DNA of 64,000 nucleotides from Auriscalpium vulgare (taxonomy: Eukaryota > Basidiomycota > Agaricomycetes > Russulales > Auriscalpiaceae), in contig JAHBBC010000025.1 of the NCBI GenBank assembly GCA_019915015.1, forward strand, positions 62,001 to 126,000, in the 5' to 3' direction. Positions 38,801 through 59,383 of the stretch are shown here, in pieces. Each line of letters starts with the position of its first letter. Position 1 is the stretch's first letter. The position numbers and the translations under genes are program-made. The notes under the pieces were generated by a model. The model had not been told where the DNA came from and made no database searches. It saw only the letters and a list, made by a program, of their open reading frames with translations.

Positions 38801-39289
38801 TATCTCAGCACCAAGAACCTCAACCTCCCCAAAGGCCGGGCTCACAAACTGCTCCCGAAGTATGTGGGACCATACAAGGTCATAGCCGCGAACCCGGACA
38901 AGTCGGTGTACACGATCGAGCTGCCCACGGAGTTGCGTGTGCGTCGTATCCACCCGACGTTCCACGCATCATTGCTGCGACGACACCACCCTAGCGACGA
39001 TCGGCTGTTCCCAAACCGAGAATCGAGGCGATTCTACGACTTCGGACAGCCCGACGACGACGAGTGGTTCGTAGACGAGATCACCGGCCATCGATGGGTC
39101 GGTGATAGGCTCGAGCTCCAAGTCAAGTGGTCTCTTGGAGAGCACACTTGGGAGGCACTCGCAACCTGCGACGAGCTGGAGGCACTAGACGAGTACCTCC
39201 GGCTACGCGGGGTCAGCGACCCTGGGTCGCTGCCACGCAGGCAGAGTGGCGGGAAGCAAAGAGGTGATCCTCGGGATCGCCAGGAATAG
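35822..39289 (+). CDS. pol: Element A Pol: RT, RNase H, integrase, chromodomain
   Basis: An open frame of about 1155 codons, in frame with gag. RT has CIPKKSGKLRTVVDAR and YLDDIFIFS. RNase H has ICDAST, FEHET and VTDHKAL. The integrase has HRTLGH...CGTCQ and GMDFTGPF, SDRDVKF and GVTERA. The chromodomain (EWFVDEITGH...VKWSLGEHTWEA) is followed by a short basic tail. It is collinear with C Pol throughout, including the TELRVRRIHPTFHASLLR block that precedes the chromodomain. No lesion was seen. Confidence 0.94.
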   Translation, partial: GYAAGSTKVEPATSVAPPMRENHTKHRARMKIGEAEEAQKGLPVPEDPEDPLAPLRKRWMESEADLMCPVPPELPPFREVNHRINLIDEKLRSLYHLPRCPDSLKPQLMLKIKRYVEAGWWEMRTAPQAAPLLCIPKKSGKLRTVVDARKRNDNTHKDVTPFPDQDQIRMDVARAKFRSKIDMSDAYEQIRIEPDDIWKTAFATIYGTFVSHVMQQGDCNAPATFQRLMTVIFRDHIGICVHVYLDDIFIFSDSIEDHEEHLRAVFHILRKNHLFLSKEKCDLYSKDMECLGHRIDDQGLHADMDKMSKVRNWPRPTNTNEVLQFLGLVQYLAQFMPDVSAYTSVLSSMTKNGRAFQWRAIHTSCFETIKAIACKVPILKPIDPRTGEMIWVICDASTWGVGAMYGQGKVWETCRPAGLMSKRFTDAQRNYRTFEHETIAILEALAKWSDKLIGRRFTVVTDHKALEFFHQQKNLSPRQSRWAEFLAKYDMQIKYIEGRVNKVADAMSRYYASVPPDMPGTELVTIDVQLDPDMDDLSPERVLELRAMTMRNRDSERDRAARELRQYAAPITKPPAKPSKTRAPPPRRVDQTASTLPTSPITVETPRESATLVSSGAEKLPVTLAPEVQVKDALTDGPSLPRQLEASPGWESVMQEAYHTDPFFAKIVKSPGEFTTFTMKDDKWYSTSRMGHVVLCVPDALLRQRKIRELITDTAHRTLGHLGAHKTAEYIRRWFWWPRMGIEIEQFCKSCGTCQMSKPGNQAPAGLLHTLPIPAQPWESIGMDFTGPFPEQDGYDYLWVVICRLTSMVHLVPMRTTTTAAQLADLYLKEIVRLHGVPASIVSDRDVKFTSAFWRELHRLLGTKLLMSTAFHPQTDGVTERAIRTVGQMLRSMVAPDQRDWREKLPLVEFALNSSASATTGCAPFELNYGYMPRIFGPTIPQTTFSGVRDFAAKAQSHLEQAHDAIIERRVLQTAQANKHRRVDEEVKVGDLVYLSTKNLNLPKGRAHKLLPKYVGPYKVIAANPDKSVYTIELPTELRVRRIHPTFHASLLRRHHPSDDRLFPNRESRRFYDFGQPDDDEWFVDEITGHRWVGDRLELQVKWSLGEHTWEALATCDELEALDEYLRLRGVSDPGSLPRRQSGGKQRGDPRDRQE

Positions 39290-39433: not shown

Positions 39434-39558
39434 ATGACACGCACACCGCGCCGCAACAGCGATCCCCCCGCCTACCACCACCACACTCCTTCCCCCCCTC
39501 CGCCTCTGGATCGCGGGCCGTCACCTATGGTGACAGACCCGCCGCCCACCGCCGCCGC
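39434..39558 (+). CDS. Element A ORF3, 5' piece (interrupted by element B)
   Basis: ATG at 39434 opens a frame of 41 codons plus two bases, rich in Pro, His and Thr. It continues in frame at 56902 on the far side of B. The 144 bp between pol and this ATG hold short inverted repeats (e.g. GATCC/GGATC around the pol end, GGGATC/GATCCC near 39313-39335). Confidence 0.8.
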
Positions 39559-40215
39559 TGATAGGTTCAGGCCGCGGGCAAGCGTGTAGCGAGACGTCGC
39601 GAGACGGGGAAGCAGCATGCGAGGCGCAGGGTCGCGGGAGCGGGGGTGATGGGAACGTGGTCCGGCGACCCAGGAGCAACCGGGACTGGCGACGGAACGG
39701 ATCACCGGAACGGGCTAGATCGGGAGGGCTTAGCGACGTAGGTAGAGCCACTACTTAGGGAGCTGCGCGAGACGTAGCAACCCAATCAACCTGTGGGCGG
39801 CGCAAGCCACCCACACCCTTTACCTCACAGAAACTGTAGCCTGAGGCGCTACCAGACTTAGGAAGGAAGGACCCCACCGATGTGGGAACAGGTAGGCAGG
39901 CGGACAGGCAAGAGGGGGTGCGACGGCCCATAGGCGGACGCTTCGCACACGGGTGCGAAGCACTCGGAGGAGGATCCCGTAGAGGGCATCCCCAGGCAGG
40001 TGAGTGTTTAGTTTGGTGTTTAGGCGGTAGGAGGTGGCCCCGCACGACCGCGGGGAGGGCACGAAGCGCGACAGCGACACGAACACCTTCCCCCCTCGGC
40101 AAGACTAGTCACCCGGACTGGATCGCGACGTATAGGAGGCAGTGTTGGTGGTTGTTGTCCTGTGAGGCACTCGCCGCACGCCCCGCTAGGGTCCGTCCCG
40201 GGTGATAGCGTATCA
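39559..40215 (+). repeat. Element B 5' LTR (657 bp)
   Basis: Begins TGATAGG, ends GCGTATCA, and matches 56241-56897 over its full length with no difference noticed by eye. It is flanked outside by CCGC (39555-39558). It contains GCTTCGCAC-ACGG-GTGCGAAGC, a 9-bp stem with a tetraloop (39940-39961). ORFs within it occur identically in both LTRs and are not genes. Confidence 0.97.
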
Positions 40216-40218
40216 TTT

Positions 40219-40237
40219 TGGAGCCCACCGCGAGGGG
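40219..40237 (+). promoter_or_regulatory. Element B primer binding site
   Basis: TGGAGCCCACCGCGAGGGG, three bases after the LTR and identical to the G1 site (6798-6816). This supports tRNA priming by the same tRNA in both elements. Confidence 0.82.
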
Positions 40238-40305
40238 TATGGTGATGACGATCGTGTTCGAGCTTTAAAATCAGCCTCGTAGACGGCACCCGGTCGCTGA
40301 TCAAC

Positions 40306-43300
40306 ATGGCGCCGAAACCCAAGATAGCCCACCTCCCAACGCGAACACAGCCGCAGAGGACCACGAGGGCGGACGCTCGCAATACGTCGCGACAGGCGGC
40401 CATAGAGGCAGAAATCGAGGAACCACAAGACGAACAGGGGGAAGTCTCATCGCTATCAAGCCTGCCATCAGAAGAAGAGGATCCGCATGGACCGACCCTC
40501 AGTAGGGAGATCCGACGCGCCGGAGAGGACCCTAGGTCCCTGATCACAGGAGGGGATCGCGTCACGATCGAGGGACTAGAAGGTTTGCTTCTGAATTCTG
40601 ATGGTGGCGATAGCGACCATCACACACGGCATGATCCGGAAGGGGAATGCTCGAGGAACGAACGGGTCAGTCCGGGATGGGGACGGGCCGTTTCCTTACA
40701 AGATAGGACTTCGCGAAACGTCGCGGAAGCTAGCAACAATCCCCAAGAAGCTCCATCAAGCCGTTCGAACCCCAGCAACCCAAAGTCGCCAACACAGTCA
40801 GGAATGAGTACACAGCAACAAGGAACAGGAACGGGTGGAGGAGGCGGCGGCGGAGGCGGAGGCGGTGGAGGAGGGGGAGGCGGCGGACAACAGGCAATAC
40901 CGCCTCAGCCCAACGTCGCGCCAGTCGCAATGCCTACCCGCGGGGACCGCAACGCACCGTCTTTCAATCAGAAGGCCCGCGAGTTACCGCGTTACTTCGA
41001 CGAGCTGAACCATCTCTTTGCCCGGGCTCAACTAGCGGATGATACGGCGAAGAAGGGCCATGCAGTGCGTTACCTAGACGTCGCGACGGCTGAGGAGTGG
41101 GAAGCGAGGCCGGAGTTTAAGGATCCCACCAAGACCTACCAAGACTTTCAGGACGCCATTGTTAAACTGTACCCGGGAGCCGATGAGGACCGCAAGTATA
41201 CCATCGCGGACATGGACGCGCTCGTAGGCAGTCGGTACCGTCTGGGCATTGCGTCCGGCGGCGAGCTCAGCGAATTCTATCGGCAGTTCTTCGCGATCAC
41301 CGACTTCCTGGTTAAGAAAAGCAGGATCTCGACCCGTGAGCGCGATATCGCGTTCCTTCGCGCTTTCCAGGACAGCCTCATGAACAGGGTGGCGACGAGA
41401 CTGCAGATCAAATTGCCGGACCACGATAAAGAAACACCGTACCCCATGGCCGACGTGCTAGAGGCAGGAGAGTACGAGCTGAGGGGCACTCCCTCAATCG
41501 TACCAGCGGTCAGCGCAGGACCGGCAGTGGCGGTTGCAACGACGGAGCCTGTAATCAAAATAGAACAGTTTCAAGAAGCAATCAAAGCCGCGGTTGCCGA
41601 ACAGTTCGCGCGGATGCTCGTCAACCAGGGGAACGGCGGAGGTCAGAGGGGTTATGGGGGTACCTCGGGAACTCAACAGCCGCGCGCCACGCAAGGAAAT
41701 CAAGGCGGACAGGGAGGGCCGTCAGGATGCCTTTTCTGCGGCCAAACGGGGCACTTCGTCAGGGAATGTATGGTGGTCCAGGACTACATCGCGACGGGTC
41801 GCGTATCTAGGGACCACAACAACCGGGTCGTTCTGAAGGGTGGAGGGCTTATCCCGCTAGGAGAAGGCCCGCTGAAGCAGCGTGTGGATGCGTACTACGC
41901 CGGGAATCAACACGGACAGTCAGAAGCCATGATGCTGACGACGATGGACTACGAGCCAGTGCCGGCCAAAGTGCAGACGGTCGCCGGCCTAATCCAACTG
42001 ACGCCGCAATTGACCGACGAAGACAGAATGACGGAGCTCCAGCAGGAGATGGCAGTGCTCCTGACGGCCCGAGCGGAAAGGCAAGCTCAGAAGGAACGCC
42101 GGCAGGCCGCACTGGACGCGGGCGAGTTTCCCCAGGCAATAGGGCTGCTGCCTGGCGAGCGCGAAAGATCGCGACGAGTTCCAGAGGTGGTCATTCCGAA
42201 GAGGAAGCCGTTTACGCAAGCCAAGAAGCAGGTTTCCTTCGAGCCGGAGGCCGTCGACCGACCAGGGGAGACTGGGGATAGCGCAGACAAACCAAGGCAG
42301 GCCGACGAAGACACCACAGCGGGTGAGGAGCCGTTAACACCTCCGATCCACCCTTTCGCGAAGGTGCCCGACGCGACGTACATAGGGCCGGCAAGTTACC
42401 AACGAAGCGCGGGGCAGCGCAAGGCGGACCCAGCATACAATAAGGTCGCCCCGGTCCGCGACCCCGTAATAGCAAGTAAGGTTTATGAGAGGGCCATGAA
42501 TGCGGAGGTCACCTTGACACAGAGGGAGCTCATGTCCATTGCCCCGGAAGTACGCGCTCAAGTTCGCAACGTGGTGACCCCTAAGCGGGTCCCAAACGAG
42601 GCAAGAGTACCAGTAGTCCAGGCGATGGTGGAAAGCGAACCAGAGCTCTTTCCGTTCGACTTTGACCAGGACGAAGGGGAAGGAGAGGACGAGAAGGTGG
42701 TGAGGGGATTCGCGGACCATATGCCCGAAACCTTTCTGCAAGCCCTGGGACACCAGCCAACGGAGTTGCCCGAGGGGACGCGTGTAGGAGAAGTCATTGT
42801 GGAGGTTCTGATGGGAGATCTAGGAGAAGCAGGAGAAGGGGAACCAGACCCTGAGCCGTTGGAAGTCGCCAAGGAATCGCTGGCCCTCCGTTCGATCTTG
42901 CCACTAGTCGACAACCAAGCGCACATCGAGGCAGTCGTGGATCCCGGGTCGCAGATTATTTCCATGTCCGAGGACGTATGCCATTACCTCGGGCTGCATT
43001 ACGATCCGAACGTTCGCCTGGATATGATATCGGCCAACAAAAGTCGCGATAGGTCGCTAGGCCTGGCTAGAAACGTCCCGATGAAGATTGGGGGTATAAC
43101 GCTATACGTACAGGTGCATATCATCCGCAACCCGGCGTACGACATGCTCCTGGGGAGGCCCTTTGACGTTCTCACGGGAAGTACCGTGCAAAACTTTGCA
43201 GACGAGAGGCAGACAATCACGATCACGGACCCAAACACGGGAGTCATGGCGTCAATCCCCACTATTCCACGCGGCCGCAAGCGCATCTCGCGAACCCAGA

Positions 43301-43329
43301 AGCAGGGGGTGGAGGGTTTTCGCGACTAG
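40306..43329 (+). CDS. gag: Element B Gag with aspartic protease
   Basis: ATG 40306, 1007 codons. The charged N-terminus is followed by a run of about 20 Gly (40832-40886) from a GGA/GGC/GGG repeat. The capsid-like region follows (RGDRNAPSF onward, residues 205-380). The zinc knuckle CLFCGQTGHFVREC near residue 475 has canonical C-x2-C-x4-H-x4-C spacing. The protease has VVDPGSQIISMS near residue 878, with LLGRPFDV further on. It ends TAG 43327-43329, just after a -1 slippery heptamer. Collinear with G1 Gag. Confidence 0.92.
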   Translation: MAPKPKIAHLPTRTQPQRTTRADARNTSRQAAIEAEIEEPQDEQGEVSSLSSLPSEEEDPHGPTLSREIRRAGEDPRSLITGGDRVTIEGLEGLLLNSDGGDSDHHTRHDPEGECSRNERVSPGWGRAVSLQDRTSRNVAEASNNPQEAPSSRSNPSNPKSPTQSGMSTQQQGTGTGGGGGGGGGGGGGGGGGGQQAIPPQPNVAPVAMPTRGDRNAPSFNQKARELPRYFDELNHLFARAQLADDTAKKGHAVRYLDVATAEEWEARPEFKDPTKTYQDFQDAIVKLYPGADEDRKYTIADMDALVGSRYRLGIASGGELSEFYRQFFAITDFLVKKSRISTRERDIAFLRAFQDSLMNRVATRLQIKLPDHDKETPYPMADVLEAGEYELRGTPSIVPAVSAGPAVAVATTEPVIKIEQFQEAIKAAVAEQFARMLVNQGNGGGQRGYGGTSGTQQPRATQGNQGGQGGPSGCLFCGQTGHFVRECMVVQDYIATGRVSRDHNNRVVLKGGGLIPLGEGPLKQRVDAYYAGNQHGQSEAMMLTTMDYEPVPAKVQTVAGLIQLTPQLTDEDRMTELQQEMAVLLTARAERQAQKERRQAALDAGEFPQAIGLLPGERERSRRVPEVVIPKRKPFTQAKKQVSFEPEAVDRPGETGDSADKPRQADEDTTAGEEPLTPPIHPFAKVPDATYIGPASYQRSAGQRKADPAYNKVAPVRDPVIASKVYERAMNAEVTLTQRELMSIAPEVRAQVRNVVTPKRVPNEARVPVVQAMVESEPELFPFDFDQDEGEGEDEKVVRGFADHMPETFLQALGHQPTELPEGTRVGEVIVEVLMGDLGEAGEGEPDPEPLEVAKESLALRSILPLVDNQAHIEAVVDPGSQIISMSEDVCHYLGLHYDPNVRLDMISANKSRDRSLGLARNVPMKIGGITLYVQVHIIRNPAYDMLLGRPFDVLTGSTVQNFADERQTITITDPNTGVMASIPTIPRGRKRISRTQKQGVEGFRD
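40829..40889 (+). repeat. Poly-glycine-coding GGN microsatellite in B gag
   Basis: About 20 consecutive GGN codons with no other residue, between a Ser/Thr/Gln-rich stretch and the capsid-like part. It is probably a flexible linker and a likely site of length variation. Confidence 0.8.
43314..43320 (+). other. -1 frameshift heptamer GGGTTTT at B gag-pol junction
   Basis: In gag frame the sequence is G-GGT-TTT, which fits the X-XXY-YYZ rule for -1 slippage, six bases before the TAG. A shift here enters a frame that runs TCG-CGA-CTA-GAG without a stop into pol, reaching LLEDQEEVGL, which aligns with LLDYLEDGEEV of G1 Pol. No attempt was made to fold a downstream pseudoknot. Confidence 0.7.
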
Positions 43330-46300
43330 AGGATTTGTTGGAGGACCAGGAGGAGGTAGGGCTGGTCGTGGGGTTCGAGCCCGATAAGCCTGATACTCTT
43401 AGAATGGAATCCCTGGTGTACCTCGAATCCTCGCCTACAATCGAAGATGTGCAGTCAGCTTATTTGTCAGTGTGCGACCTACCGGAGGAATACGCGGGAG
43501 TGTTCGCGAAGCGAGCGGAAGAAGGAGAGGAAGAGGAGGAACGAGCAAGAGCAGGGACGTTTATTTGGACGGCGGCAGACTGGGGAGACGGCGAGAGTGG
43601 GAGAGAAAGAGAGGAGGAAACGGACAGAGGTGAGCTACAGCCGACCGCGATGCAGCGCGAAGTCTTTGCGGCCACGAAGAAGCGTTACAAGCCAGCACAC
43701 CTCAAGGTAAAGCCCATTCGTACGGACCTGCCGGAGCACTTCCGGATCCTCAGAGAGATCAGAGGGGACCCCCTGGCGGATATGCCGCCGCTCCCAGAGA
43801 AGCCACCGGACTTCGTACCCACGGGGAGGTACACCGCGGAACGTCGCGAACAATTTGACCGAGTCCACGACGGAGATTTCCTATGGCCGGAAGAAAGGAA
43901 GCTCATGCATGCGTTTATGTGCGCACAAAACGAGGCATTTGCCTGGGACGACTCGGAGCGGGGGCGCTTCCGAGAAGACTTCTTCCCCCCCGTCACAATA
44001 CCAGTAGTTCCGCATCGGCCGTGGGTTCAGCGAAATATTCCGATTCCGCCAGGGATATACGACAAGGTCATGGCGCTCATCAAGACCAAGATCGCCGCGG
44101 GAGTCTACGAGGACTCAAACTCGTCGTACCGCTCTAGGTGGTTCTGTGTGGTTAAGAAGGACGGGACCAGCCTCCGTATAGTCCATAGTCTGGAACCCCT
44201 GAATGCGGTGACCATCGCGCACTCAGGAGTACCCCCTTCCCAGATCATTTGGCGGAGCAGTTTGCGGGGCGGCCGTGCGGGGGAATTCTGGACCTCTACG
44301 TGGGCTATGACGAAAGGAGACTAGATGAAGCCTCAAGGGACCTCACGACTTTCCAGACGCCGTACGGCGCAAAACGGCTGGTGACCCTGCCTATGGGGTG
44401 GACGAATTCCGTCCCGATCTTCCACGACGACGTGACCTTTATTCTCCAACCAGAAATCCCGCATATTACGGTGCCTTTTATAGACGACGTCCCCCTGAAG
44501 GGGCCGGACTCGGACTACAGGACGGAAGGCGGAGGATACGAAACGATCCCCGGCAACAACGGCATAAGGCGGTTCGTATGGGAACACTTTAACAACGTTA
44601 ACAGGGTAGTCCAACGAATGCGCTACTGTCATGGCACGTTCTCAGGATGGAAATCACAGCTGTGCGTACCAGAATTCTACGTGGTAGGGCATCGCTGCAC
44701 ACCGCAAGGAAGGATGGCAGACGAAGAAAAGGTCGCGAAGATTCGCAATTGGGGGCCGTGCACGGACCTCTCAGACGTACGGGCTTTCTTGGGGACAGTC
44801 GGAGTCCTGCGCATCTTTATCCGTAACTTTGCGCACCGAGCCCATGCCTTGACACACCTGACGAGGAAGGACGTCCCGTTCGAATGGGGACCCGAACAGT
44901 CGCGAGCTATGGAGGACCTCAAGGAGGCAGTCCTCGCATCACCAGCGCTCCTACCGATTGATTACACGTCGGAGGCCCCCGTGATCCTAGCGGTAGACAC
45001 CTCGTACATCGCGGTGGGTTTCCTATTGAGTCAGGCGGACCCCAACGTTCCCCAAGACAGGAAGAGACGCCGATATTCTCGATTTGGTAGCATCGCGCTA
45101 AACGATCGCGAAGCGCGGTTCTCGCAGCCCAAGCTGGAGCTCTATGGTCTTTTTCGAGCCCTGCGGGCCCTTAAAGTCTACCTGATAGGGGTGAGGAACC
45201 TGACCATTGAGGTCGACGCCAGGTATATCAAAGGCATGCTGGAAAATCCTGACCTCGAGCCATCGGCCAGTATGAACAGGTGGATTATAGGCATCCTGAT
45301 GTTCCATTTTGAGCTGGTGCACGTGCCGGGACTCTTCCACGGGCCCGACGGCCTATCCAGGAGGCGTAGGCAACCAGGAGACGCTCTGGAACAGGAAGAC
45401 GACTTCGACGACTGGGTTGATGCGGTGTATGGTTTCGCACATATCGTAAACATGGTAGTCCCGAAGACAGCGCAAGAGAGAGCCTCGCGACGGCAAGATG
45501 GATGGACGGGGCCAGGAAGCATACCAGACGAACATGGGGCTGGTTCAAGCCAGGACGCGATACGTCGCGAGGAGGCCCGGCGCTCCCACGATGAACCGGC
45601 CGACGTCTGGGCAACTACGGTCCAAATGCAACCCGCACCAGTACAGGACGCGACGTATCGCGATGTTCCCAGATCAGACAAGGCTCACGAAGCTGACAAG
45701 CGGCTGGAACTAGTCAGGGACTGGTTAGGGACCCTGGCGCGGCCGGCGGACTTGACCGACGAACAGTTCGCTCGTTTCGCTCGATACGCGCTCCAGTTCT
45801 TCAAGGATGGGGACCGCCTTTTCAAAAGGCACCACCAAGGCAGGCACCAACTCGTGCTGGGAGGAGATCGACGTATCGCGGTCCTCAAAGCAGCTCATGA
45901 CGATGTCGGACACAAAGGCGTCTACGCGACGCGGATGATGCTGTTGGAGCGTTTCTGGTGGCCATACGTGGACGCAGACGTGGCCTGGTGGGTGAGAACG
46001 TGCCATATTTGCGAAACCCGACTAGTTCGCCACAGCCTGATACCGCCAACGGTGGCAACGCCGGCGAACCTTTTCGCAAAGATGTATGCAGACACCATGC
46101 ATATGCCAGCAAGCGGCGGATTCAAATACATCGTGCAAGGACGCTGCTCCGTAACCCACTATCCAGAGTGGAGAATGCTAAGGGCGGAGACGGCGGACGC
46201 CATCGCGAAATGGATTTTCGAAGACGTCTTGTGCCGGTGGGGCGCCCTGCGAGAAGTGGTCACGGACAACGGCGCACCGTTCGTGTCGGCCTTGGAATCC

Positions 46301-47104
46301 CTGTCGCATAAGTATGGAGTCCGGCACATTCGAATATCGGGATATAATTCGCGAGCCAACGGAATAGTCGAGCGGTCTCACTTCGACGTACGTCAAGCGC
46401 TCTACAAGGCAGCCGATGGAAATGCTGCAAAATGGTCATCGGTCGCGTACTCGGTATTCTGGTCGGACAGGATAACGATCAGGCGGAGGATGGGCTGCTC
46501 GCCATACTTCGCGGTAACAGGAACGCAGCCGCTAATGCCGCTGGATATCATCGAGGCTTCATACTTGATGCCTCCGCCCGAGTCTCTACTGTCTTCCACA
46601 GACCTCATAGCGCGCAGGGCAATGGCCCTACAAAAGAGAAAAGCCCAGTTAAGGACCATCCACGACAAAGTCTTTGAAGCGCGACGTATCGCGGCGGTAA
46701 AATTTGAACGTGACCACGAAGCGACGATTCGCGACTACAATTTCAAGAGAGGCGACTTGGTCCTCCTACGGTTCACGCGGTACGAGAAGTCTTTGGATCG
46801 AAAAATGCTTCCGCGCTACGATGGACCGTTCGTGGTAATTGGCCGACGGAAAGGAGGACCTTACGTGCTTGCGGACCTCCACGGTGCGCTCTTCGACCGA
46901 CCGGTCGCGGAGTTTCGCGTCCTGCCTTACTTCGCGCGAACGAACATTGCGCTGCCAGAGTTGCCCGAATTTCTGGACGTCCCACAGTCCAGGGTGGACG
47001 AGCTACTTCATGAAGATAGGCAGGATCACGATGTCATTCATGAAGAGGAAGCAGACGACCCCACCCGGGAAGACGATGACAAGGACGACGAGATCACCGT
47101 CTAA
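43321..47104 (+). pseudogene. pol: Element B Pol: RT, RNase H, integrase, with a one-base frameshift
   Basis: The first part is open to 44324. The second part opens at about 44249 and runs to 47104. The break falls near 44232-44243, where one C seems missing from a C-rich run compared with the G1 reading (HSGV-P-P then HLAEQF). After the break all domains are present: YIDD-like IDDVPLKG of RT, RNase H (AVDTSYIAVG, EVDARY), the integrase zinc domain (HDDVGH...CHIC) and the core (TDNGAPF, GIVERSH). There is no chromodomain. The C-terminus is strongly acidic. Either this copy is dead or the base is a sequence error. Confidence 0.85.
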
Positions 47105-47126
47105 AAAGTACCGCCCAGCACTACGG

Positions 47127-47163
47127 CGACTGAGGACAGTCGATATTTCAGTTGGGGGGAGGA
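47127..47163 (+). promoter_or_regulatory. Element B hairpin-TTCAGT-polypurine module, internal copy
   Basis: CGACTG-AGGA-CAGTCG (perfect 6-bp stem, 47127-47142), then TTCAGT (47147-47152), then TGGGGGGAGGA. It lies 23 bp after the pol stop and matches the copy just before the 3' LTR (56202-56240). In a cargo-less ancestor this would have been the 3' PPT. Confidence 0.75.
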
Positions 47164-47576
47164 TTAGACGGTGGTATTTAGGACTGAACAGCTGGAAGTA
47201 CGGATGGAGAGGAGTCAGGACGATAAGTCGAGGTCGCGAGCGCTAGCGAAGCTCGGACTGGGCAGGCACCGACTAAGGCTTCAAGGGTCTGGAACAAGGC
47301 TGAGGTCGCGCCGGAAACGCGATAGGACACGCTCACACTGTGACACAAGCAATGGACTCTATTCACAACATAGCAGGATAGCGAATTCTATGTACACAGC
47401 AAAGAGGTAGCGACGGATAGCGAACAACTACGAACAGACCGATAACGAGCGGACAACACGACAGCGAGACGCCGAAACCCCCACCTAGGACACGAGGAAC
47501 GCCCCCCGCATCGAAGCACCAAGGCCCTCTGCTGTTGAAGCAGGGGCGACTCCTTTTGAAGAAGGCTCGCAAGCGG
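47164..47576. other. No gene seen; spacer between B pol module and cargo gene B1
   Basis: Short ORFs only. The sequence contains several AGGTCGCGA/GCGATAG-type words and probably holds the 3' end of the antisense gene B1. No repeat ends or inverted termini were seen that would mark the cargo as a separate insertion. Confidence 0.5.
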
Positions 47577-49276
47577 CTAAGCGGCGGGCGCGGGGTCAGC
47601 GGGACCATCAGCCGCGGCGGAGGGCGGCGTGCCGACATCCTCGAAGGAGGAAGCGGCGGCGGTAGGCATGGTAGGGCCGGGGGCAGGGTCCGACGCGGGA
47701 GGAGCGGCAGCGGCGAGCGGCGAGAAGGGCGCAGCGGGAGCAACCGGAGGCGCGGGGGAAGGAAGGCGAGAGGCGCGACCGACGAGAGGCACGACGGCGG
47801 CGCCGGGCAGCGGGAGGGAAGAGGCGATGAGAGCCGACGAGGGTGGCGCAAGGAGGAGGCGCGAGGCAGGCCTGGCCGGCGCGGGAGAAGCGGCGCGCGA
47901 CGCGGGGGGAGCAGGGAGAGGGAGGCGGCGCGGCGGATCGAAGGGGCCAACCTGCGGCGAGATGTGGCCCCCGGCAGGCGCAGGGAACGCGGGGTCGCCG
48001 AGCTGCTGCAGGGTCCGCCAGACCCAGTTCCGCTCAGCGACGATGCCGCGGGCCCGGGCGTCGAGCGTCGCGTAGTTGACGCTGATGGTGTTGAGCTCCT
48101 CCGTGAGCGCGTTGTAGGTCCGGAAAAGCTGCGGCGGGGAGTCGTAGCGGAGGATGGGGACGGCGCCGGCAGGGTCGGGGTGGTCGGCCCAGTCGAAGGC
48201 GGAGGACCGGGGACGGACATGGATGCCGGCAGGGTCGACATCCTGCGAGACTCCGTTGCTGCCCACCACGTAGAAGTGCGTCCCGCGGACACCGTCGTCG
48301 CACTTGTGGTGGCCCACGAAGCAGCGATGGCACTGGCGGCCGCTGACGTCCGTGAAGAAGCACGTGGGGTGGGAGTCCATCGTGGCGCAGCGGTAGCAGG
48401 GGGCGGAAGCCTGAGGGTCGGAGTGTGAGCGGCGCAACACGACGGACAAGAAAAGGGCGACGTACCTGAAGGCGGCGGCCCGGGAAGGTGTCAGCGACGG
48501 GGATCTTGGCGCCCTTGACGGAGGTGGAAGGGTCGGCGGCGGGCGCGGGGGAGCCGGCCTCGGAAGAGGGGACAGTGGCGGCGGGCGGAGGCACGAGGGA
48601 GCCGGAGGGGACGTTGGCAGGGCGCTTGGAACTGCGGACGGCTTTGCCCTTGCCCTTCGACATGGCGGCGGCGGGGACTGATCGGGGGGCGGGGAGTTTG
48701 GTGGCGCCGCGGGTGCGCTGCGCGACGGGCTCCTGCGGGTCCCCCGCCTCATCTAGCTCGTCGACCTCGGCCTCGGCGTCAGCCTCGGAGGGGGCGGACT
48801 CGCGGTTGCGCTTGGTGGGCGGCGGGGAAGCGCGGGCGGCGGCGCGGTGAGGCGTGGAGGAGACCGGGGGGCGGACAGAAGGCGCGGGGAGGGCACTGTC
48901 GGCGCGGGCCCGCTTGCCAGCCTGACGGGAGAGGGGAGCGGCGACGGGAGTGGAGTAGGGGATGGCGGGTGAGGACGGCGTGGGGGAGGGGCCGGAGGAC
49001 GGCCAGGCGTCGACAACGGCGGACACGGCCCCGATCCTGTCCAGCACCTCGGACGGCGGGGGGTCCTCCCCAACACCTCAGCATAAGCGGACTGGACACA
49101 AGGGAGGGTCAGCAGAGCGTCGGGAGCGAGAGGCCGTGGGCACTCACCGTGGCCGACTCCCAGTTCGCGGCGAACTCGCCGTAGTGGGCGGAGTCGACTG
49201 TGGGGAGGGAGGCGACGAGCGCTTCTACGGCGGACAGCCGTTTCCTGAGGTTGATGGGGCGGGAGAACGCAGACAT
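47577..49276 (-). CDS. Cargo gene B1: Cys/His-cluster protein, antisense in element B
   Basis: Not a recognised family. Three exons fit: 49276-49148, 49065-48466 and 48410-47577, with phase-0 joins and GTGAGT and GTACGT donors, giving about 520 residues. The first 43 residues look helical (RKRLSAVEALVASLP). The middle is Pro/Ala/Ser-rich with KGKGKA-type basic patches. The third exon opens with a dense cluster: C-x2-C, then C-x8-C-x2-C, then GHHKC. This resembles a zinc-binding module. A helical segment follows (YNALTEELNTISVNYATLDARA), then a long Pro/Ala tail. It is antisense to gag-pol, so its introns would survive retrotransposition of the sense RNA. Role unknown. Confidence 0.7.
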
Positions 49277-49555
49277 GGCCAGGGAAGGGGGGAGATAGGG
49301 AGAGGTGAGGGGAGGAAAGAGAGAGACGGAGAGGTCGAGGCGCAACGCGTCGCGTTAAGACGGGGCGCCGCGCCAGCGTGTGGGTTTTTGCTTCCGACGT
49401 GGAAGCAGAGCGGGCCCGCCGGGCCGCGACAGGTGCGGCGCTTACCTTCACACGGCTTAGCGAGCGTTCGCGCGCGAGTCAAGAAGAAGGGATAGGGAAC
49501 GGAATGGCATTACTGGGCCCTAAGGGCGCCTTGGGCAAATTACAGGAATCGCTCG

Positions 49556-50737
49556 CTACGCGGGCGCACCGGACCCGGACGCACCATTGGGCGCGGGAGT
49601 CCGGGCGCGGTTACCCCCATTCCTACGACCAGCCCGTCGACTCAGGGCATCAGGAGGCCTCGGGCCCACGACCTCAACAAGGTTGGGGACCCCCCACGAG
49701 AACGCGATAGAGCCGCGGCGGATGACTCGGTGAGTAAGCGGCGGGAAGGGAAGGGCGGTAAGCATACGGCGCATAGGACCGGCACCGGCGAGGTGGTCGA
49801 GGACCGCGGCAACTTCGCAGGCATCGTACAGCAGCTTTCCCGCGGTGCCTTCGAGGCGAGTGACGGCGTGGCGCAGGTGGCTGGCGTTCAATTGGTCCGC
49901 CCAAACGAAGTCGCGAAGCTCCGCGACCAACTTGAGGCCGGGAACGAGATAGTCGGCGGCTTCACGGACGTTCGCACGATGGGCAGCCTGCAACGAGGGA
50001 CTCGCGGCCGCAAGGAAGTCGAGGACGCCAATGTCGCGGGGGTGGGTCATTCCGATCACGGCGCGGTTCAAGGGGAGCATGAGGGCCCCAACCAGCCCGT
50101 CGGCGTGGTCGAGGTCGTCACTCAAACGATCGAGGTCGCGAAGGAATAACTCGGCAACACGGGTGGCAAGGCCGTCGGGACGGGGGGCAAACTCGGGGCC
50201 GAACAGCGCTGCCAAGTTGACCTCGAAAGTTGCCCGGCCGTGAAGTTGGTGACGGTACAGCAACCAAACGGAGCGCTCCACCAGGTGGGCCAAGGAGTCC
50301 ACATGGACCACGTGAGGAAGCAGAGCGACGCTGGGTGGCTGCCCCGGGGCGTTGTCCCCTCCGAACGGAATATTTCCTACGATATTCGCGCGAATGGGGG
50401 CGGTTTGTTCGAACGTTTCGGGAAAGCGCTCCGCTAGGTAGGAGAGCGTCGAGACGACGGTCATGGACGCGAGGGCCGGTAGGGTAAAATGCGACGTCTC
50501 GCGATGGTCCTGCTGAAAAGGGGGGAAGAAGCGAAGACAACGTCAGTACGAGGCCGGGATGAGGGAAAAGAGGGCCGCGGGACGACGCACCAATAGGTCG
50601 GAGATCTCCTGAAGCCAGGCAACGGCGGCCGCGGGAAATGAGGAAGCGTCGGCACCAGGCAAGGGCACCTCAACCGGATGTATCAACAGCTGGTACAGCC
50701 GGAAACGCGAAAACGCGCGGAGTAGGACGGCCTGCAT
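49556..50737 (-). CDS. Cargo gene B2: unknown protein, paralogue of B3
   Basis: Two exons, 50737-50591 and 50512-49556, joined in phase 0 with a GTGCGT donor, give about 367 residues. No known domain. The segment HFTLPAL...YLAERF after the intron aligns with HFTSPIL...PLAQRF in B3, and SVWLLYRHQ aligns with GLWTVYYFG. The intron sits at the same place and phase in both genes. Mostly helical, with no signal peptide or membrane segment. The C-terminus is basic and low in complexity (RRAGRRNGGNRART). Confidence 0.7.
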
Positions 50738-51076
50738 GTGGAGGAGGTAGTCGGACGGACTGGGGCGTTGAGGGTGTTTTTGGAAAAGGCCATCGTCGCA
50801 GCCCCCTCATATAGGCGGCGCGAGTAGGGAAAGAGGCACACCATCGCGGCGTCGCGATACAGCGCGAAGACCAAAACACGAGGGTCTCGCCGGAGTTTCG
50901 GCCAACGTGGGTTATCGCGACAGATCGCGACCCAGACGGAGCCTCCGGCATGGGCCCAGGAGCTTATCGCAAGGCATCGCGAAACGTGGCACAGGGACAG
51001 GGGGAAGCCGCACATGGCTCCTGGTTCCATTTCAATAGCTATGGAACATTCTACAGACATTGGCCCGGGAATATAC
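50738..51076. other. Intergenic, B2 upstream region
   Basis: Between the B3 stop (51077) and the B2 start (50737). Short ORFs only. It includes several AATATCGCGA/TCGCGA-type words and probably holds the B2 promoter and B3 3' end. Confidence 0.4.
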
Positions 51077-52100
51077 CTATTCCTCGCGCTCCATCAGAAG
51101 CTCGATCACCTCCCCCTCCTCGACTTCTTCCGAGATGGCGATGGGCGGCGGTATCTCCCCGGCGTAGGTAGGAGACGCGGAGGGGGCCGTCGGCGCTGGT
51201 ACCGTGGGGTGCGCGGGGAAGGGAAGAGGGCCCGGCTGGTCCGAGGGATGGACTATGGCATCGAAGCCTAGGGGTATCTCAGCTATGGCTTGGGAGGAGG
51301 AGATGTGCGAGAGGCGCGCAGAACTGATCTGCTCGATGGCGCGAATCGAGGCCACGCTGATATCCTGGACCAGGAAGTCTGCGGGCTGGAGGTTGGCCAG
51401 GAGACGGGACCCTAATCCCCATGCGTCCAGCATCCCGCCCATACAGGTTGCCATCGCGGCCCAGCGCATGTCGAGGCGATCCAACACCAGTGGCCAGTCC
51501 GCCCAAATATCGCGAAACGTGTCGAAGGCCTCGGAAATGGTGGTAAAGTCCCGTAACATATCCACCGAGTCCTCCGCGAGGCCCCCCAATAGGTAGTACA
51601 CCACGCCCGTGGTGAGGCGGCCCGCGTAGGCACGAGAGTGGGGGGAGCTGGAGGCACCACGGACGTTACGATTACTCTTAATCGTTCTTTTCTCTAACCA
51701 GTCAGGCCAAAAAATGTGTGTTTGGATCGTTACCAAAGGAAATTATATCCCACGGTCAAGTCGCGTCGTCCCACCTGCCTAATTGAGTAATTCTTACCTA
51801 AGTAGCTTCTGCCCAATGCTTTTTCACACCTTTGCATCTCAAAAGACACTCGTGTCTGTGAGTATTTTGTGTTTTTCAAGCTAAATAGCACAGATATGCA
51901 TATGATTCGAATTGTTCTGTGATGAGAATAGGAGGCCCCACAGTTTCCGTTTTTGGTAAAAAGTTCCCACGCATGGTGCAGAGAAAGATGACGTAGTTTT
52001 CGAGGGCAAACTGCCAATTGATCCGGTTTACTATGTCATTTTTCTCTACTCCGGCTACTACAATACCCGGGCCCAACTGTTTCAGTACTAAAAATCCACA

Positions 52101-52187
52101 CACAGTAGGAATTGAACCCACAGCACATGATTCATAGCTTTCATAATATAGGCTAAGAGCGTTAACCACTAGACTACAAGGCTGCAT
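52101..52187 (-). ncRNA. tRNA-like sequence (SINE head or tRNA pseudogene)
   Basis: On the minus strand TAGTCTAGTGGTTAACGC fits an A box with D-loop, and GTGGGTTCAATTCCTAC fits a T-arm and B box with a paired stem. The acceptor ends do not pair and the anticodon stem is poor, so this is not a working tRNA. It is more likely the head of a tRNA-derived SINE, or a decayed tRNA with an insert. The SINE tail was not delimited. Confidence 0.5.
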
Positions 52188-52199
52188 ATCTATAATAGT

Positions 52200-55100
52200 T
52201 GTGTATAGCTTGTATCAACCTTCTACCTCCTCGTGCCTTACAACACATTTTGCTCTTTCTATCAGATTCTTGCCTTTTCCCTGATACAATGCACACATAT
52301 TATATATCGTCGGAAAGCTACAACCAATGCACACACAATGGTCATGGTGCTGGAGTCTGAAGGACTTGTGATGTATTAGCTAGTGCGTATTTACCACCTG
52401 TGTGTAGACCCAGGTCTACCAAGCGCACGCATGTGTAAGCCTACAGCTTACTACATACATTTTTCCTTTCTCTTTTCTCTCTCATCGGACTCGTACATAG
52501 CATATATTCTCGTCCCCGTACTTACGCACCAGCGCGCCCCGGCAATCACCGTGCCGCTGCCACGTCACAGTCGCGTTGCGTTGATACGCCTGCCCAGCCG
52601 TCTAGCAGAGAAACCCCCGACTTCTGGCATTTTCGGCATCTTCCGAAATCACGTGACCTCAGCCCGCCGGCCTCGGTCCGCACCATCAGGTTTCACTACC
52701 ACCCCGCAGCGTCTATCGAAAGCGCCCCAAACGCACTTGAAATAGCCTACACGCCCCACCAAGCGCCCCGAGCCACACACCACAATCCTACGGCCCCGCA
52801 CAACAGTCACACAGTGGCTATCTGACTCGGAGCCACACGCCACAATCCTTCCCCGCCGTGATGCGCCACTGTCAATCACACTTCCCTTCTGCGTCCCCCG
52901 ATTCCTCGATATTCCCCACATCTTGATCCACGATACGGTCCCGCCTATGTTAATCCACAGCCGTCCGAGATAGGCAGGAGCGCTACACAGCGAGCCAAGA
53001 CCGCCTGTCGTACGTCCCTCCCTTCAGTTTACACTTAGAATACATGGGATACCCCGCTCGACTTTACGATACACCACCAGCGCCTTACGACCTGAGCGCT
53101 AGCCGCGCTTTACGCACTTCGCCCCCTAGCGGCGATCGTAAGTCAGAACTAAACCTAAACCATCCTTAATTCAATGATCCTCTCTTGCCACATCCCTCGT
53201 ATAATTACTCCCCCGCGTGCACTTCGTACACCCCGTGATATCTGACCCATGTCTCCCGCGTTTTAGATCGTATTTGTCTTCACTATGTCAACGTCCGTAC
53301 GATATGGATTTCTGACTCGCTTGGCGTACAAATAGTTCTGAGTTGCTAGAAGACGGATGAACAAGTTACTATTCCCCCTCGTACTCAGGATCTCGAAAGA
53401 GCTTCTGAAGTGGTCTGACTTCACCACAACCCGTCGCTCTAGCTCTTAAACGCACGAAACTTCGACACCAATACCACACCGCAATATCAATACGAATACC
53501 AATACCACGACCCTCAACAAATCCCCTCTCGCCCTTCGAAATCTCCCTACGCCTCACTACTCTCTCCCTTGACACCCCGCACCTTCAACGCAGAGATCAG
53601 GCCTATATACGCCCCTCTGTTCCTTCGTCACCACCTCGTACTTCTTCCCTCTCGTCCTTGATATATTCCCCCGACCATTGCCACCGCTGCGTAATTCCCC
53701 TTCAACTTGCGAAATAGTCCTCACGTCCCCTCCAACATTCCTAGCTTCTGTGACACATTCTTGGGAGCTCGCCCGTCGCGTCTCCAGCACTGCATCATTT
53801 CGGTGATCCGTGCTGTGTCTAGCTCGCACCCTATTGTCCTCTCCCCCAGCCTCTCGCGCCCTCCGATCCAAGTCCTAGTCACCGTGTCCCACTCGTACAC
53901 CGAGCAGGATTTGCCGTGCGTAGTCTCGGGACCCTGACTGCACTCCCTCAAATTGATACGTTCACTACTGCGCTCTGAGGATTGGACATCAATATATATC
54001 CGCCTCACTACCAGTTGGACACCCATCAGTGTTCGCTCTGCTCTCTCTCTCCTCATCTACAACTGCCTCTCCTGTACCCACACCTCCTCTGCTTCCTAGC
54101 AATCCCGACTTGGTTCCTTTCTGCGTCGCCCGATTATCGTCTTTGAGTGTTTCCGCCGCATGGCGGTCTCCAGCATGTGGCCAATGATAAGCCTCACTCC
54201 GCGCTCCGATGCATTTCTTCACCAATTTTCGCACTTTTGACAAGTTAACAGTCATGCAATTCTGGAGGTTGGAGAGTCACACACATGAGCTCCAACCACC
54301 CGATATAGTCTCTCTGAATGCTTGCAAGATTGAAGCCAGAGTTCTGACCGTTAGTGTCTCGCAGGGCATTTGCACGATCGGAATCATACCTTGGACACCA
54401 CACTCAGACCATCAACTGAGTCGCACACCCCACACGCAGTCATCCGACCACTCGCACATTGTTTCAACCACATCCACGTGACCTTGAGCATAGCATCCTC
54501 TCACAGCTGTTACAACTTGGCGGGATTTCGTATGACATTTTGATTGTCGAGATTGTTGTTAGAACATGTGCGCCACACTGCTTCAATAACTCTGTGACTG
54601 CCGGGTACCTCCATAGTTGCGCCATTATCCTCCATCCATTGTCCAGCTTAGCTCTTGAGCTCACACCACATTTCTCTGATCCAGATTGTTCTGTGATTGC
54701 GCCAGTGCTCCAATTATTGCTCCTCTGCTCTGACCGTTGCACACGCCATTCCAGTACATTCCTCTGAACAATTGCAGTGTTCCAACATTGCAGCACTTGC
54801 TAACGACCCATCCTATATCGGAGCGCATTCTATTGCTCGCTGTGTCTCCATTGTGTTCAATTATATTCATATTGTCTTGTCCACACTGTAGGACACCTTT
54901 CCCACACTTCTTGACAGTGCAGACCATTCCCCATGTGCTTGCACTGCCCCTCACTCGTCTCTTCATCTTCAATGGTCATACACACAGTGTCTGATCACTC
55001 ACAGTCACTTGCACCATGTGTTCTTACATCTGGACTCCCATTGATAATTCTCCAAACGCTTGCACATTCCAATCATCACCTCCAATCACACACCCCACAC

Positions 55101-55300
55101 ATATATGAAACACTCTGTTCGTCTTTGGGACCCTGACACTTGCTCACACACATTACAATATCCTCTTTAGTGCTCTAGTAGGGATCTGGTTTTGGACACA
55201 TGTGACATTACCACCCTACTACATGTGGGTACCCAACACCGCAACTTTGTCCTGACATCCCAATACATCACAGAGTCACTTTCCTGCAAGCAGAGCCAGA
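52200..55300. other. No gene seen inside the TIR element
   Basis: Long low-GC to moderate-GC non-coding stretch with pyrimidine-rich runs (CTCTCTCTCCTC near 54030) and CACAC-rich patches (54400-55100). The ORFs are short and overlap on both strands without any familiar motif. Confidence 0.5.
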
Positions 55301-56201
55301 GCCATTAACCCCAAGTATTATATCTGCAACATATTCAAAACAATATAACTATACCAGGCAGTCAGTTGTATGTTGGATGGCCAAGCCCCCCTCCCCCCTA
55401 AATGATTAAGAGTAATTGTACTGCCATGCGTGCATTGGCCCATTAACCCCAAGTGGTAGGCCAGGGCGCGGCACACGGCGTCTTCGCGGGTAATAACAAA
55501 CATCCCATGGACGGCCCGGGCGTCGAAATCACGTAGGAGCCAGCTCTGCATCCCCTGAGGACGCAGGGTGGGGAAGGCGCCATGCAACTCCGTGATTTCA
55601 TGGAGGTAGGATTCGACAGAACCGTCTCCGAAGTAGTACACGGTCCAGAGCCCAGCCTCCACGATGGTGATCAAGACGTGGAGTTCCGCGTCGGTAGCGT
55701 CGGCAGGGAAAGGGGAGAACATCTGGGACCACCGCGGGCTGGCGCGCGCTGAGTCGGGGAGGGTACGCATGAGGGTGCCCTCGAAGCGCTGGGCGAGAGG
55801 GGCGGACGCTGGAACGAGCTTCACCATGAACTCGAGGATCGGCGAGGTGAAGTGGAAGGCAAGATCGCGCAGGCTGCGGGACGCGCGGATTGAAGAAAGG
55901 GTCTGGAATTGAGTTCATCATCAGCCAAGCCGGGAAAAGACGCGGTCGGGGACCAGCACGCACCACGAGCTGGTTGACCTTGTCGGCCCACCCTAGACGT
56001 AGCGCAACCTCCCGTTCGGCATCCCCAAGGTCAAAACCAGCGAAGGGGGCCTGCGTCAGCAGGCGGAGGAGGTCGAGGTTGTCGGCGGTGGCAGACGCTG
56101 CGGGGAGGGACATCGCGGGACAGAAATCGGCAAAGGGATGCTACAAGCGACGTATCGCGAAAGGTCGCGAGCCCTTATATGCCGCTTCCGCACGGTTCCT
56201 G

Positions 56202-56240
56202 GCAACTGGGGACAGTTGCAGTTTCAGTTGGGGGGAGAAA
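56202..56240 (+). promoter_or_regulatory. Element B 3' polypurine tract with tetraloop hairpin
   Basis: GCAACTG-GGGA-CAGTTGC (perfect 7-bp stem, 56202-56219), TTCAGT (56223-56228), then TGGGGGGAGAAA directly against the 3' LTR at 56241. Relative to the internal copy, one stem pair changes from G-C to A-T on both sides, keeping the pairing. Confidence 0.82.
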
Positions 56241-56897
56241 TGATAGGTTCAGGCCGCGGGCAAGCGTGTAGCGAGACGTCGCGAGACGGGGAAGCAGCAT
56301 GCGAGGCGCAGGGTCGCGGGAGCGGGGGTGATGGGAACGTGGTCCGGCGACCCAGGAGCAACCGGGACTGGCGACGGAACGGATCACCGGAACGGGCTAG
56401 ATCGGGAGGGCTTAGCGACGTAGGTAGAGCCACTACTTAGGGAGCTGCGCGAGACGTAGCAACCCAATCAACCTGTGGGCGGCGCAAGCCACCCACACCC
56501 TTTACCTCACAGAAACTGTAGCCTGAGGCGCTACCAGACTTAGGAAGGAAGGACCCCACCGATGTGGGAACAGGTAGGCAGGCGGACAGGCAAGAGGGGG
56601 TGCGACGGCCCATAGGCGGACGCTTCGCACACGGGTGCGAAGCACTCGGAGGAGGATCCCGTAGAGGGCATCCCCAGGCAGGTGAGTGTTTAGTTTGGTG
56701 TTTAGGCGGTAGGAGGTGGCCCCGCACGACCGCGGGGAGGGCACGAAGCGCGACAGCGACACGAACACCTTCCCCCCTCGGCAAGACTAGTCACCCGGAC
56801 TGGATCGCGACGTATAGGAGGCAGTGTTGGTGGTTGTTGTCCTGTGAGGCACTCGCCGCACGCCCCGCTAGGGTCCGTCCCGGGTGATAGCGTATCA
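56241..56897 (+). repeat. Element B 3' LTR (657 bp)
   Basis: Same length and apparently the same sequence as 39559-40215. Followed by CCGC (56898-56901), the second copy of the target-site duplication, after which A ORF3 resumes. Confidence 0.97.
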
Positions 56898-56901
56898 CCG
56901 C

Positions 56902-59383
56902 GACGCAGCCCGCCGCAGCAACGGAGGGCCAACCCCCTGCCACTCCATCCGCGAGAGGCTTCTTTTCTGGTGCCAGCTGGGCATACGACCCGGTTACGCG
57001 TATGGTGCGTCACCGTCCTTGCGACTGTGATACACTGTACGGCCAGCACTACGACGCCGCATTCGCGGCCGACCAGGAGGACCTGATGCGCGCCTTAGAC
57101 GCGGCCAGGGCATACGAGGAGGTTCGACTGCGCGAGGCCGAGCTCGCTATCGAGCGCTGGCAGACCGAGTCTGACCGACTTCGTCGCGAGCGCAACGAGT
57201 CGCGCAACGAGGCTCGGGAGCTCCGCCGTCAACTCGACGAGCGCCCCGCCGCGCCGCAAGAACCCCGTCCCCCGGTAGCGCCCGCCGCCCGTACATCCCC
57301 CGCGTCGCATACGACGCCGGCAATAGTACCGGTCAGCGTGCCGCCTCCCGCACCACCCGTCGCACAGTCGCAGCCGACTACCGCTCCGTCAACGAGTGCG
57401 CCCGTCGGACAGAAGCGTGCTCGCAGCGTGCACGCATACGACGACGACGACTACTCGGATGACGAGGACGAGGAAGACATCCGCGAGCGCGAGAAGAAGG
57501 CTGCGGACAGGGAGTACACCCTGAAGCTCCGCAAGGAGAAGAAGGCCCGCGAGCGCGAGAAGAAGACCAATACGCGCGCGCCGCCCTCCTCGTCTCCGTC
57601 CTCTTCCTCGCAGCCCGCCTCGACGACGGGAAGCTGGGGACAACCTGGACCGTCCCAATGGACCCGGTCTGCTGTGTCCCAGCCCACCGCGCCGTCGAAC
57701 AATTGGGGACCGGGAACCGTGGCAACCCAACCCGCCGCGACGTCGGAGAGCTGGGGACCGCCCCAGGCATGGGGTAGCTCCTGGTCCACTGCGGGAGCGG
57801 GTGTAGGGCTGACACTCCCAGTACCGCCAGCCGAGCGCCCGTACGACCCGTTCACGGGTATACTGGTCTCGCAAGGACAGGAGCAAGCCCGCGCACAGGT
57901 CGACGAGCAGTTCAACCGCGGCATCGCAGACGATGACGCGGCGGAGACGATACGCGACTGGCTGCGCGTCATCAACGATGCCAACCCCGCCAACCGCACG
58001 CCGCTCGCGCGGTACGTGCTGCAGCAGTACTCGCAACGTCACTACTTCCTCCGCCCGCCGCGCACGTTCACCGCCACGCAACACAACTTGGCGCGGTTCG
58101 GACCCCAACACGCGCCAAGGGGGAGGGGTGCACCAAACAGGCCTACCGTTGTCCCGAGGACAACACACGCAGGCCCACCGACAAGAGGCACGGCCATGGG
58201 ATGGTCGAGCGCGAACACCACGGTCCCGAGGACCGCGAGCACGAACGCGCCCCCCAGCAACAACGCACAGTGGCCAGCCAGAACGATGGCCCCGAATGCT
58301 ACAGTCCCGGGGACTGGACGCACGGGACAACCACCAGCACGCGGAGGCGCAGCGACCGGCACGGGACAGCGTAGTGGCGCCCCCGCACCGACGACTCAAC
58401 TCGACGCAGACGTCGAGATGAGCGAGAAGAAGAAGAAGCGTAAGAAGAAAAAGGCGCGTCGCGCTGACAACGCGGAAGAATCCGTCCCATTGGACGGATT
58501 CGCTAGCGTGCACGATCTGGTCCCCGACGACCTGAGCGCCTCCATATACCCGCCGCCGATTCCACAACGTGTCGGTCCGCCTCAACTTGAGGAACCCGCC
58601 GCGCGATGGATGGCGTTCTGGAGGGCCCACCCCACTCAGACTCCTTCTGGAGTCGAACCACACGAGCAGCCCGCACTGTTTTACGTGCAGGCGTACCTGG
58701 ACTTCAGGCGGCTTGCTCCCTTAGGGAACTCGGAGGACCAGCGCGTCGCACGGTTGCGATTCATGCACGCCGCAACGCAGATGCTGTCGATCCCGCACCT
58801 CACCGAGCACCTCATCCATGACCTGGGGTCTACGGTTGAATTCTCGGGACCTGGCGGCACTGGGGTCGCCTTCACGGGCGATACCCACAACCTGACGTTC
58901 GAGGACATCGCGGCCCACATTGCCAACGCTGGATACTCTGTCCAGCAGATCCGCGCAATGGAGCGCTTCGCTCGTGCGAAGCGCAACCGTGCCAGCGAGC
59001 GCGATCCGTCGGATGAGTCCGAGTGGGCCGACTATCCCACCGTAGGTGAGATGGTCGCCCGCCACGGCACGCTATACCGATTCCCGTCTCCTGCTCGGGC
59101 GACTCCATCCAGTCAGGTGAATCTGGACATTGCACCTCTGCCGGCGGGAGGTACTGCGCCGGTGGACGTCGCCACCACCCCATCCTCCGCCGTCCCATCC
59201 ACGAACAACCCCGCTCCCATGGACGTCGTCAACGACATACCAGAGGGTGCGGAATCGGCCCCCGCCAGTGTTGAACACACTGCAGGGATGATGCCAGCGT
59301 CCACCAGCAATGTAGACGACATTGCGGTCGATGCTGTGCAGCCCGATTCCCCCTCACCCATGGGCGAACCCAAGGGGGAGTGA
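56902..59383 (+). CDS. Element A ORF3, 3' piece
   Basis: Continues the frame begun at 39434; the split codon is completed by base 56902. Total length is about 868 residues. After a Pro/Ala-rich start come SWAYDPVTRMVRHRPCDC (W-x-Y-D, RH-x3-C-x-C), a coiled coil of about 90 residues rich in R/E/A, an acidic run (DDDDYSDDEDEED), another K/E-rich helix, a long Gly/Pro/Thr-rich linker, a basic KKKKRKKKKARR cluster likely to be nuclear, and a mostly helical C-terminal domain (ARWMAFWRAH onward). ORF3 of C shares the first three parts. No envelope-like membrane segments. Possible roles are nucleic-acid or chromatin binding; unproven. Confidence 0.78.

Follow-up and report, generated by a model that had tools for sequence, protein, structure and literature searches.

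The analysed DNA, referred to as the window, comprises 64,000 nucleotides of the Auriscalpium vulgare contig JAHBBC010000025.1 (positions 62,001 to 126,000; G000:C25:62001-126000 in our coordinates), and was compared with its genome of 51.6 Mb in 96 contigs. It holds a Gypsy long terminal repeat (LTR) retrotransposon, here called element B, which carries three predicted genes, B1, B2 and B3, antisense to gag and pol and located between pol and the 3' LTR. The features of the element, including its target-site duplication (TSD), open reading frames (ORFs), reverse transcriptase (RT) region and polypurine tracts (PPTs), are as follows.

39555..39558: left TSD, CCGC
39559-56897, plus strand: element B, Gypsy LTR retrotransposon, recognised by its LTRs, TSD and Pfam domains
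39559..40215, plus strand: 5' LTR, 657 bp, ends TGATA..TATCA, same letters as the 3' LTR
40249..43329, plus strand: gag-protease ORF, with a weak zinc knuckle and an aspartyl protease
43167..47104, plus strand: pol, with RT, RNase H and integrase; split over two frames around 44189-44324 in the window copy
47125..47161, plus strand: left hairpin-PPT module, PPT1; stem CGACTG/CAGTCG, then TTTCAGTTGGGGGGAG
47577..49276, minus strand: predicted gene B1; exons 49276-49148, 49091-48466 and 48410-47577, introns of 56 and 55 nt
49556..50737, minus strand: predicted gene B2; exons 50737-50591 and 50512-49556, intron of 78 nt, 367 aa; TATATGAGG upstream
51077..56113, minus strand: predicted gene B3; exon 1 56113-55964, intron of 61 nt, exon 2 55902-55455 with its remainder at 51666-51077; TATAAGGG upstream
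51667..55454, no strand assigned: separate insertion in B3, not part of the antisense block; 3.8 kb, 2-bp duplication GT, 20-nt inverted repeat 51667-51686 / 55401-55420
56201..56237, plus strand: right hairpin-PPT module, PPT2; stem GCAACTG/CAGTTGC, 3 bases from the 3' LTR
56241..56897, plus strand: 3' LTR, 657 bp, no difference from the 5' LTR
56898..56901: right TSD, CCGC

Matching LTRs and the duplication CCGC had already been recognised in an initial annotation made from the window's letters; both are confirmed, the LTRs being identical. Pfam places gag-protease ahead of RT, RNase H and integrase between the LTRs, which is the order of Gypsy (Ty3) elements; the RT match is weak (E 0.036) and split in frame in the window copy, where the pol frame shifts within the RT region, giving ORFs 43167-44324 and 44189-47104. 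In two other copies, L043 and L044, this RT stretch is open in one frame. Further Gypsy hallmarks are the TG..CA LTR ends, the short TSD and the PPT ahead of the 3' LTR.

The antisense block travels with element B

The antisense block spans about 5.35 kb between the pol stop (47104) and the 3' LTR. A search of the genome with 47105-56240 returned the window and at least 23 other copies with 99-100% DNA identity over the left 4.56 kb of the block, a lower bound, the scoring having covered 27 of 591 candidates. In these 23 copies the right 0.79 kb (complete in 22, partial in one) directly adjoins the left part, and the window stretch 51667-55454 is missing. This stretch occurs alone at two places on contig C19 (G000:C19:154786 and C19:199228) and on C92, and is therefore a separate insertion. 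The 9 kb of cargo proposed initially thus does not hold as a single block and shrinks to the 5.35 kb given above. The insertion is pyrimidine-rich, and on C92 it lies in a tandem arrangement.

Exact anchors across the junction of pol, PPT1 and block gave 55 occurrences (29 forward, 26 reverse), and those for a block-less junction gave 4, so that most family copies counted in this way hold antisense ORFs between pol and the 3' LTR; reversed-pattern controls gave none for either junction, and copies with altered anchors escape both counts. LTRs of B are present in at least 40 copies (40 scored of 160 candidates). Of 30 LTR loci taken, 26 formed 13 pairs, and the four without a usable partner were two in a tandem on C18, one on C69 and one on C88. 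The 4-bp TSDs match in 12 of 12 block-bearing pairs, as well as in the single block-less pair, and differ between loci (CCGC, GCGG, CCGG, GCGT, ACGC). With the block occupying the same place, between pol and LTR, in insertions at unrelated loci whose TSDs differ, the initial suggestion that the cargo moved with the element is borne out: the antisense block belongs to element B. The LTRs of a pair are equal in length in 11 of 13 cases (nine with no and two with one mismatch) and differ by one base in length in the other two, and this near-identity indicates recent movement of B. A side observation concerns the target sites: CG stands at the centre of all 13 TSDs examined, compared with about 9% of 4-mers, so B seems to integrate at CpG.

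A relative in the same window, G1 (1-7977, minus strand), shares 61% identity with B in pol, and its own pol lies about 200 bp from its LTR; G1 is thus without the block, as noted initially. Some B3 copies appeared diverged, and a second cargo family was considered for them and rejected, since the three examined (on C19, C1 and C2) are internally deleted derivatives. Copies L043, L044 and L045 are B derivatives that have lost parts of pol and block; the B3 frame continues into the tail of B1 in L043 and L044, and only a B3 remnant is left in L045.

Three predicted genes with conserved introns

In four of four other copies (L039-L042), all three genes are encoded at equal lengths: B1 with 529 aa in three exons, B2 with 367 aa in two and B3 with 395 aa in two. 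The initial description of three antisense genes with exons joined in frame stands for the frames and for the GT-AG introns, with only B2 being whole in the window itself. There, a 1-nt deletion leaves B1 exon 2 with 626 instead of 627 nt and shifts the frame (155 vs 529 aa), and the 3.8-kb insertion interrupts B3 (244 vs 395 aa). The start codon of B2 is our choice, a further ATG lying upstream. Besides the window, 21 distinct loci were assessed for B3 exon 2, and in 15 of them its frame is open over all 345 codons; this count derives from 19 of 26 rows after removal of the window row and four duplicates, with L050, which covers B3 without the exact start motif, left out.

The introns of 56, 55, 78 and 61 nt are GT-AG throughout in L039-L042. 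Among distinct loci besides the reference copy L041, in alignments of at least 90% identity, GT-AG is retained in 22 of 22 for B3, in 10 of 10 for B2 and in 9 of 9 for each B1 intron, and intron loss occurs at none. Genes that pass through spliced RNA lose their introns. The genomic RNA of B would correspond to the opposite strand, on which splice sites are absent from the introns; the genes would accordingly cross reverse transcription unspliced. More specifically, B1-B3 may be transcribed from antisense promoters of their own, with TATA-like boxes located ahead of B2 and B3, and their transcripts would then be spliced and translated. The proposal that antisense orientation lets introns survive agrees with every locus scored, and the copies at many loci show antisense placement keeping four introns intact.

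Purifying selection on B2 and B3

Changes were counted against one reference copy, with expectations matched to mutation types and with L043-L045 left out. In B3, 38 of 82 changes at 20 loci are synonymous (25.0 expected, P 0.0018), as are 17 of the 23 changes common to at least two loci (P 1.4e-5; omega, the ratio of nonsynonymous to synonymous change, ~0.15). For B2, the counts at 10 loci are 26 of 56 (17.2 expected, P 0.0098) and, for changes common to at least two loci, 9 of 11 (P 6e-4, omega ~0.10). A 494-codon fragment of pol gave an omega of ~0.29, or ~0.19 for shared changes. Stop-making changes are absent from B2 and B3, with 1.2 and 2.5 expected, respectively. Judged by these codon counts, B2 and B3 are under purifying selection, and for changes common to two or more loci the constraint is close to that on pol. 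Distinct indels number seven in B1, five in B3 and none in B2. None of these has a length divisible by 3, a pattern more in keeping with decay following insertion than with constraint.

Block boundaries and block-less copies

PPT1 and PPT2 flank the block as one 37-bp module, made up of a short hairpin and a TTTCAGTTGGGGGGAG tract, with 31 of 37 bases alike. Between the two stems there is a single paired change from G-C to A-T, together with one extra pair in PPT2, and a like hairpin precedes the LTR of G1. With just three sequences, the covariation of the stem is suggestive only.

The four block-less junctions fall into two types. In the copy on C18, the six differing places read as PPT1 up to the fourth and as PPT2 thereafter; at the junctions on C87 (two) and C88, all six match PPT2, directly after the PPT1-side flank. 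Their position in the family was assessed in a FastTree phylogeny of 23 pol pieces of 1.0-1.46 kb, rooted at the midpoint, with 4 of 26 matches dropped for being shorter than 1 kb. The C18 copy (L022) groups with the block-bearing L058 (support 0.85), and the C87/C88 trio (L038, L068 and L069) forms a clade (0.99) inside a block-bearing one (0.92); some other nodes are weak (0.24-0.42). Because of the hybrid repeats with two breakpoints and the nesting among block-bearing copies, the block-less copies look like derived losses, explained by two independent events. Each loss would represent a jump between the PPT repeats, most likely during reverse transcription. Full-length B copies without cargo had been named at the outset as evidence that would count against an element-borne cargo; such copies do exist, as a minority of 4 junctions against 55, and they look derived.

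Homologues and predicted structure

The searches gave one outside relative of B3, a predicted or hypothetical protein of Auriscalpium vulgare (Russulales), with 88% identity over residues 1-170 and 66% over 313-392, which crosses the predicted B3 exon join unbroken. When this protein was searched in the genome studied here, no identical piece appeared among the matches listed (of 152). Among these, exon-1 pieces reached at most 92%, middle pieces were mostly at 79-83% (best 87%) and C-terminal pieces at 60-67%; given that no identical piece was listed, the protein very likely comes from another genome.

A protein search requiring shared 5-residue words, which distant homologues would escape, gave no relatives of B1 and B2. 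Similarly, no host homologue of B1-B3 was found in searches of the genome, which gave close matches only, those examined lying in B-family elements, and which distant homologues would also escape. The TRP28 domain (PF04195), on which assignment to Retand turns, is not found in B1-B3 by Pfam at an E limit of 10, and a PDB sequence search with B3 gave no usable match (best E 0.22). Nothing useful came from ARAGORN on the window, from Rfam on 47000-57000 or from phage records searched with pol. B1 carries a cysteine-rich motif and basic stretches which, with no domain match, look like features of zinc binding and nuclear entry.

Interpretation and alternative explanations

Taken together, we consider it likely that B represents a Gypsy lineage in which accessory genes form a standing module, located downstream of pol and ahead of the 3' LTR and oriented antisense to gag-pol. 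Most likely, the B1-B3 proteins would act in the replication or regulation of the element itself, a role also proposed for plant antisense accessory ORFs; our best guess is that they are accessory factors of its cycle, probably in the nucleus. As block-less copies exist, such help may be optional or given in trans. A more specific version, which we put forward only tentatively, is that the spliced three-gene module relies on its antisense orientation to carry its introns through every RNA cycle, that the hairpin-PPT modules on either side of it both function in priming, with a second plus-strand primer provided by the inner one, and that B2 and B3 are selected replication helpers.

Several observations weigh against a standing accessory module. 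Four junctions are block-less, and B3 exon 2 is non-standard (shortened, extended or fused) at the remaining 6 of the 21 loci. B1 shows no significant constraint, with 36 of 107 changes synonymous at 10 loci against 33.1 expected (P 0.31) and 11 of 28 among changes common to at least two loci (P 0.25); constraint on B1 is thus not detectable in these counts. Its region is GC-rich, and other frames there are nearly open, with 2 and 3 stops. The overall omega of B2 and B3 (~0.51) indicates weaker constraint than on pol (~0.29). The opposite-strand frame with the same third positions has a like synonymous excess in B3 (41 of 82 vs 25.7, P 0.0003) and a weaker one in B2 (24 of 56 vs 16.8, P 0.03); it contains 7 stops in B2 and 7 in B3. 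Furthermore, no Pfam match was obtained for B1-B3 at the E limit of 10, and single-sequence AlphaFold models were poor, with a predicted local distance difference test (pLDDT) score of 44 and 41.

The block could have been caught once between pol and LTR and have hitch-hiked without function since, its open frames being remnants of the donor. The block-less copies, the near-neutral B1 and the lack of known domains would suit such a passenger, which we nevertheless regard as unlikely: amino-acid changes in B2 and B3 are fewer than neutral, most clearly among those shared between loci, stop-making changes are absent, and B3 is kept in another genome at the identities given above. For B2 and B3 at least, the pattern is not that of mere passengers. 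It is quite unlikely, too, that the RNA is what matters, with antisense transcripts of the block forming double-stranded RNA or interfering with the sense RNA and the proteins being incidental. The excerpted text of PMC7264820 and PMC12786077 does discuss control by antisense RNA, in plant elements and in Ty1, yet constraint at the codon level and conserved, frame-joining splicing point to protein.

That the block is a mobile element in its own right, inserted into B once and moving with it since, would account for the direct repeat that bounds it. This repeat, however, is 37 bp long, 84% identical and B's own hairpin-PPT module rather than a short TSD, and searches of the genome, with the surroundings checked for a minority of matches, did not recognise the block outside B-family elements; we hold this origin to be very improbable. 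Least probable among the alternatives is an ancestral block-less B, with recent acquisition of the block, perhaps on more than one occasion. The absence of the block from G1 means that it was gained or lost somewhere deeper, but both block-less types join the PPT1 flank to PPT2 letters with differing switch points and lie inside block-bearing clades, and on these grounds an ancestral status was rejected.

Relation to known systems

As far as the excerpted sources go, antisense accessory ORFs between pol and the 3' LTR are established in plant Gypsy elements (Grande gene23, RIRE2, Retand; aORF-3R), where they occur in most family copies (PMC11963269, PMC7264820). For the Grande antisense gene, a promoter of its own is reported in the same excerpts, and a nuclear or regulatory role is proposed for plant antisense ORFs (PMC11963269, PMC7264820). 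Element B has the same site, orientation and presence in most copies. Unlike the plant elements, it resides in a fungus and carries three genes interrupted by spliceosomal introns; Pfam detects neither TRP28 nor any other domain in these, and the hairpin-PPT module at the edge of the block is duplicated. No word starting with 'intron' occurs in the main text of either paper. One fungal case is cited: in Botrytis cinerea, Boty-like elements harbour an antisense gene, brtn, in the interval from pol to the 3' LTR (PMC7264820, PMC8365987); by description, these share with B the fungal LTR element and the position of the antisense gene, but have one named gene and an ascomycete host.

HBZ of human T-cell leukaemia virus type 1 (HTLV-1) is, in the part of PMC1459196 consulted, an antisense spliced protein gene in an LTR retroelement, as the genes of B are predicted to be; it is a single gene of a retrovirus with its first exon inside the 3' LTR, whereas the B genes are internal and separate, with upstream regions of their own. 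Bdelloid rotifer LTR elements and Terminons resemble B in being retroelements with captured additional genes or extra ORFs, but the excerpts of PMC5408684 and PMC6431247 describe no antisense spliced genes in them. In literature covered at the level of titles and abstract openings, with subscription literature mostly outside this scope, no report of intron-bearing antisense genes inside an LTR retrotransposon was recognised, HTLV-1 HBZ being the retroviral case. Within the reach of these searches, the new features are the set of three spliced genes, the retention of their introns from locus to locus, and a boundary of PPT repeats at which block losses are observed. Element B offers a natural system for asking what accessory genes do for LTR retrotransposons, and also how such blocks get lost through PPT repeats.

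Surroundings of element B and nested copies

Element B sits inside another LTR element (window 31237-59797, TSD GTTAC) with 299-bp LTRs at 31237 and 59499. The pol of this host element lies at 35822-39289 and is followed by a sense ORF of ~830 aa (to 59383) with no Pfam match. Elsewhere in the window, a truncated B LTR of 446 bp (23791-24236) is 99% identical. At G000:C18:297527-327085, three B LTRs are present with internal sequence flanking the middle one on both sides, like a tandem of two elements with a common LTR. At G000:C2:1232920-1260029, one B copy is inserted in reverse into another, and the TSDs match for both.

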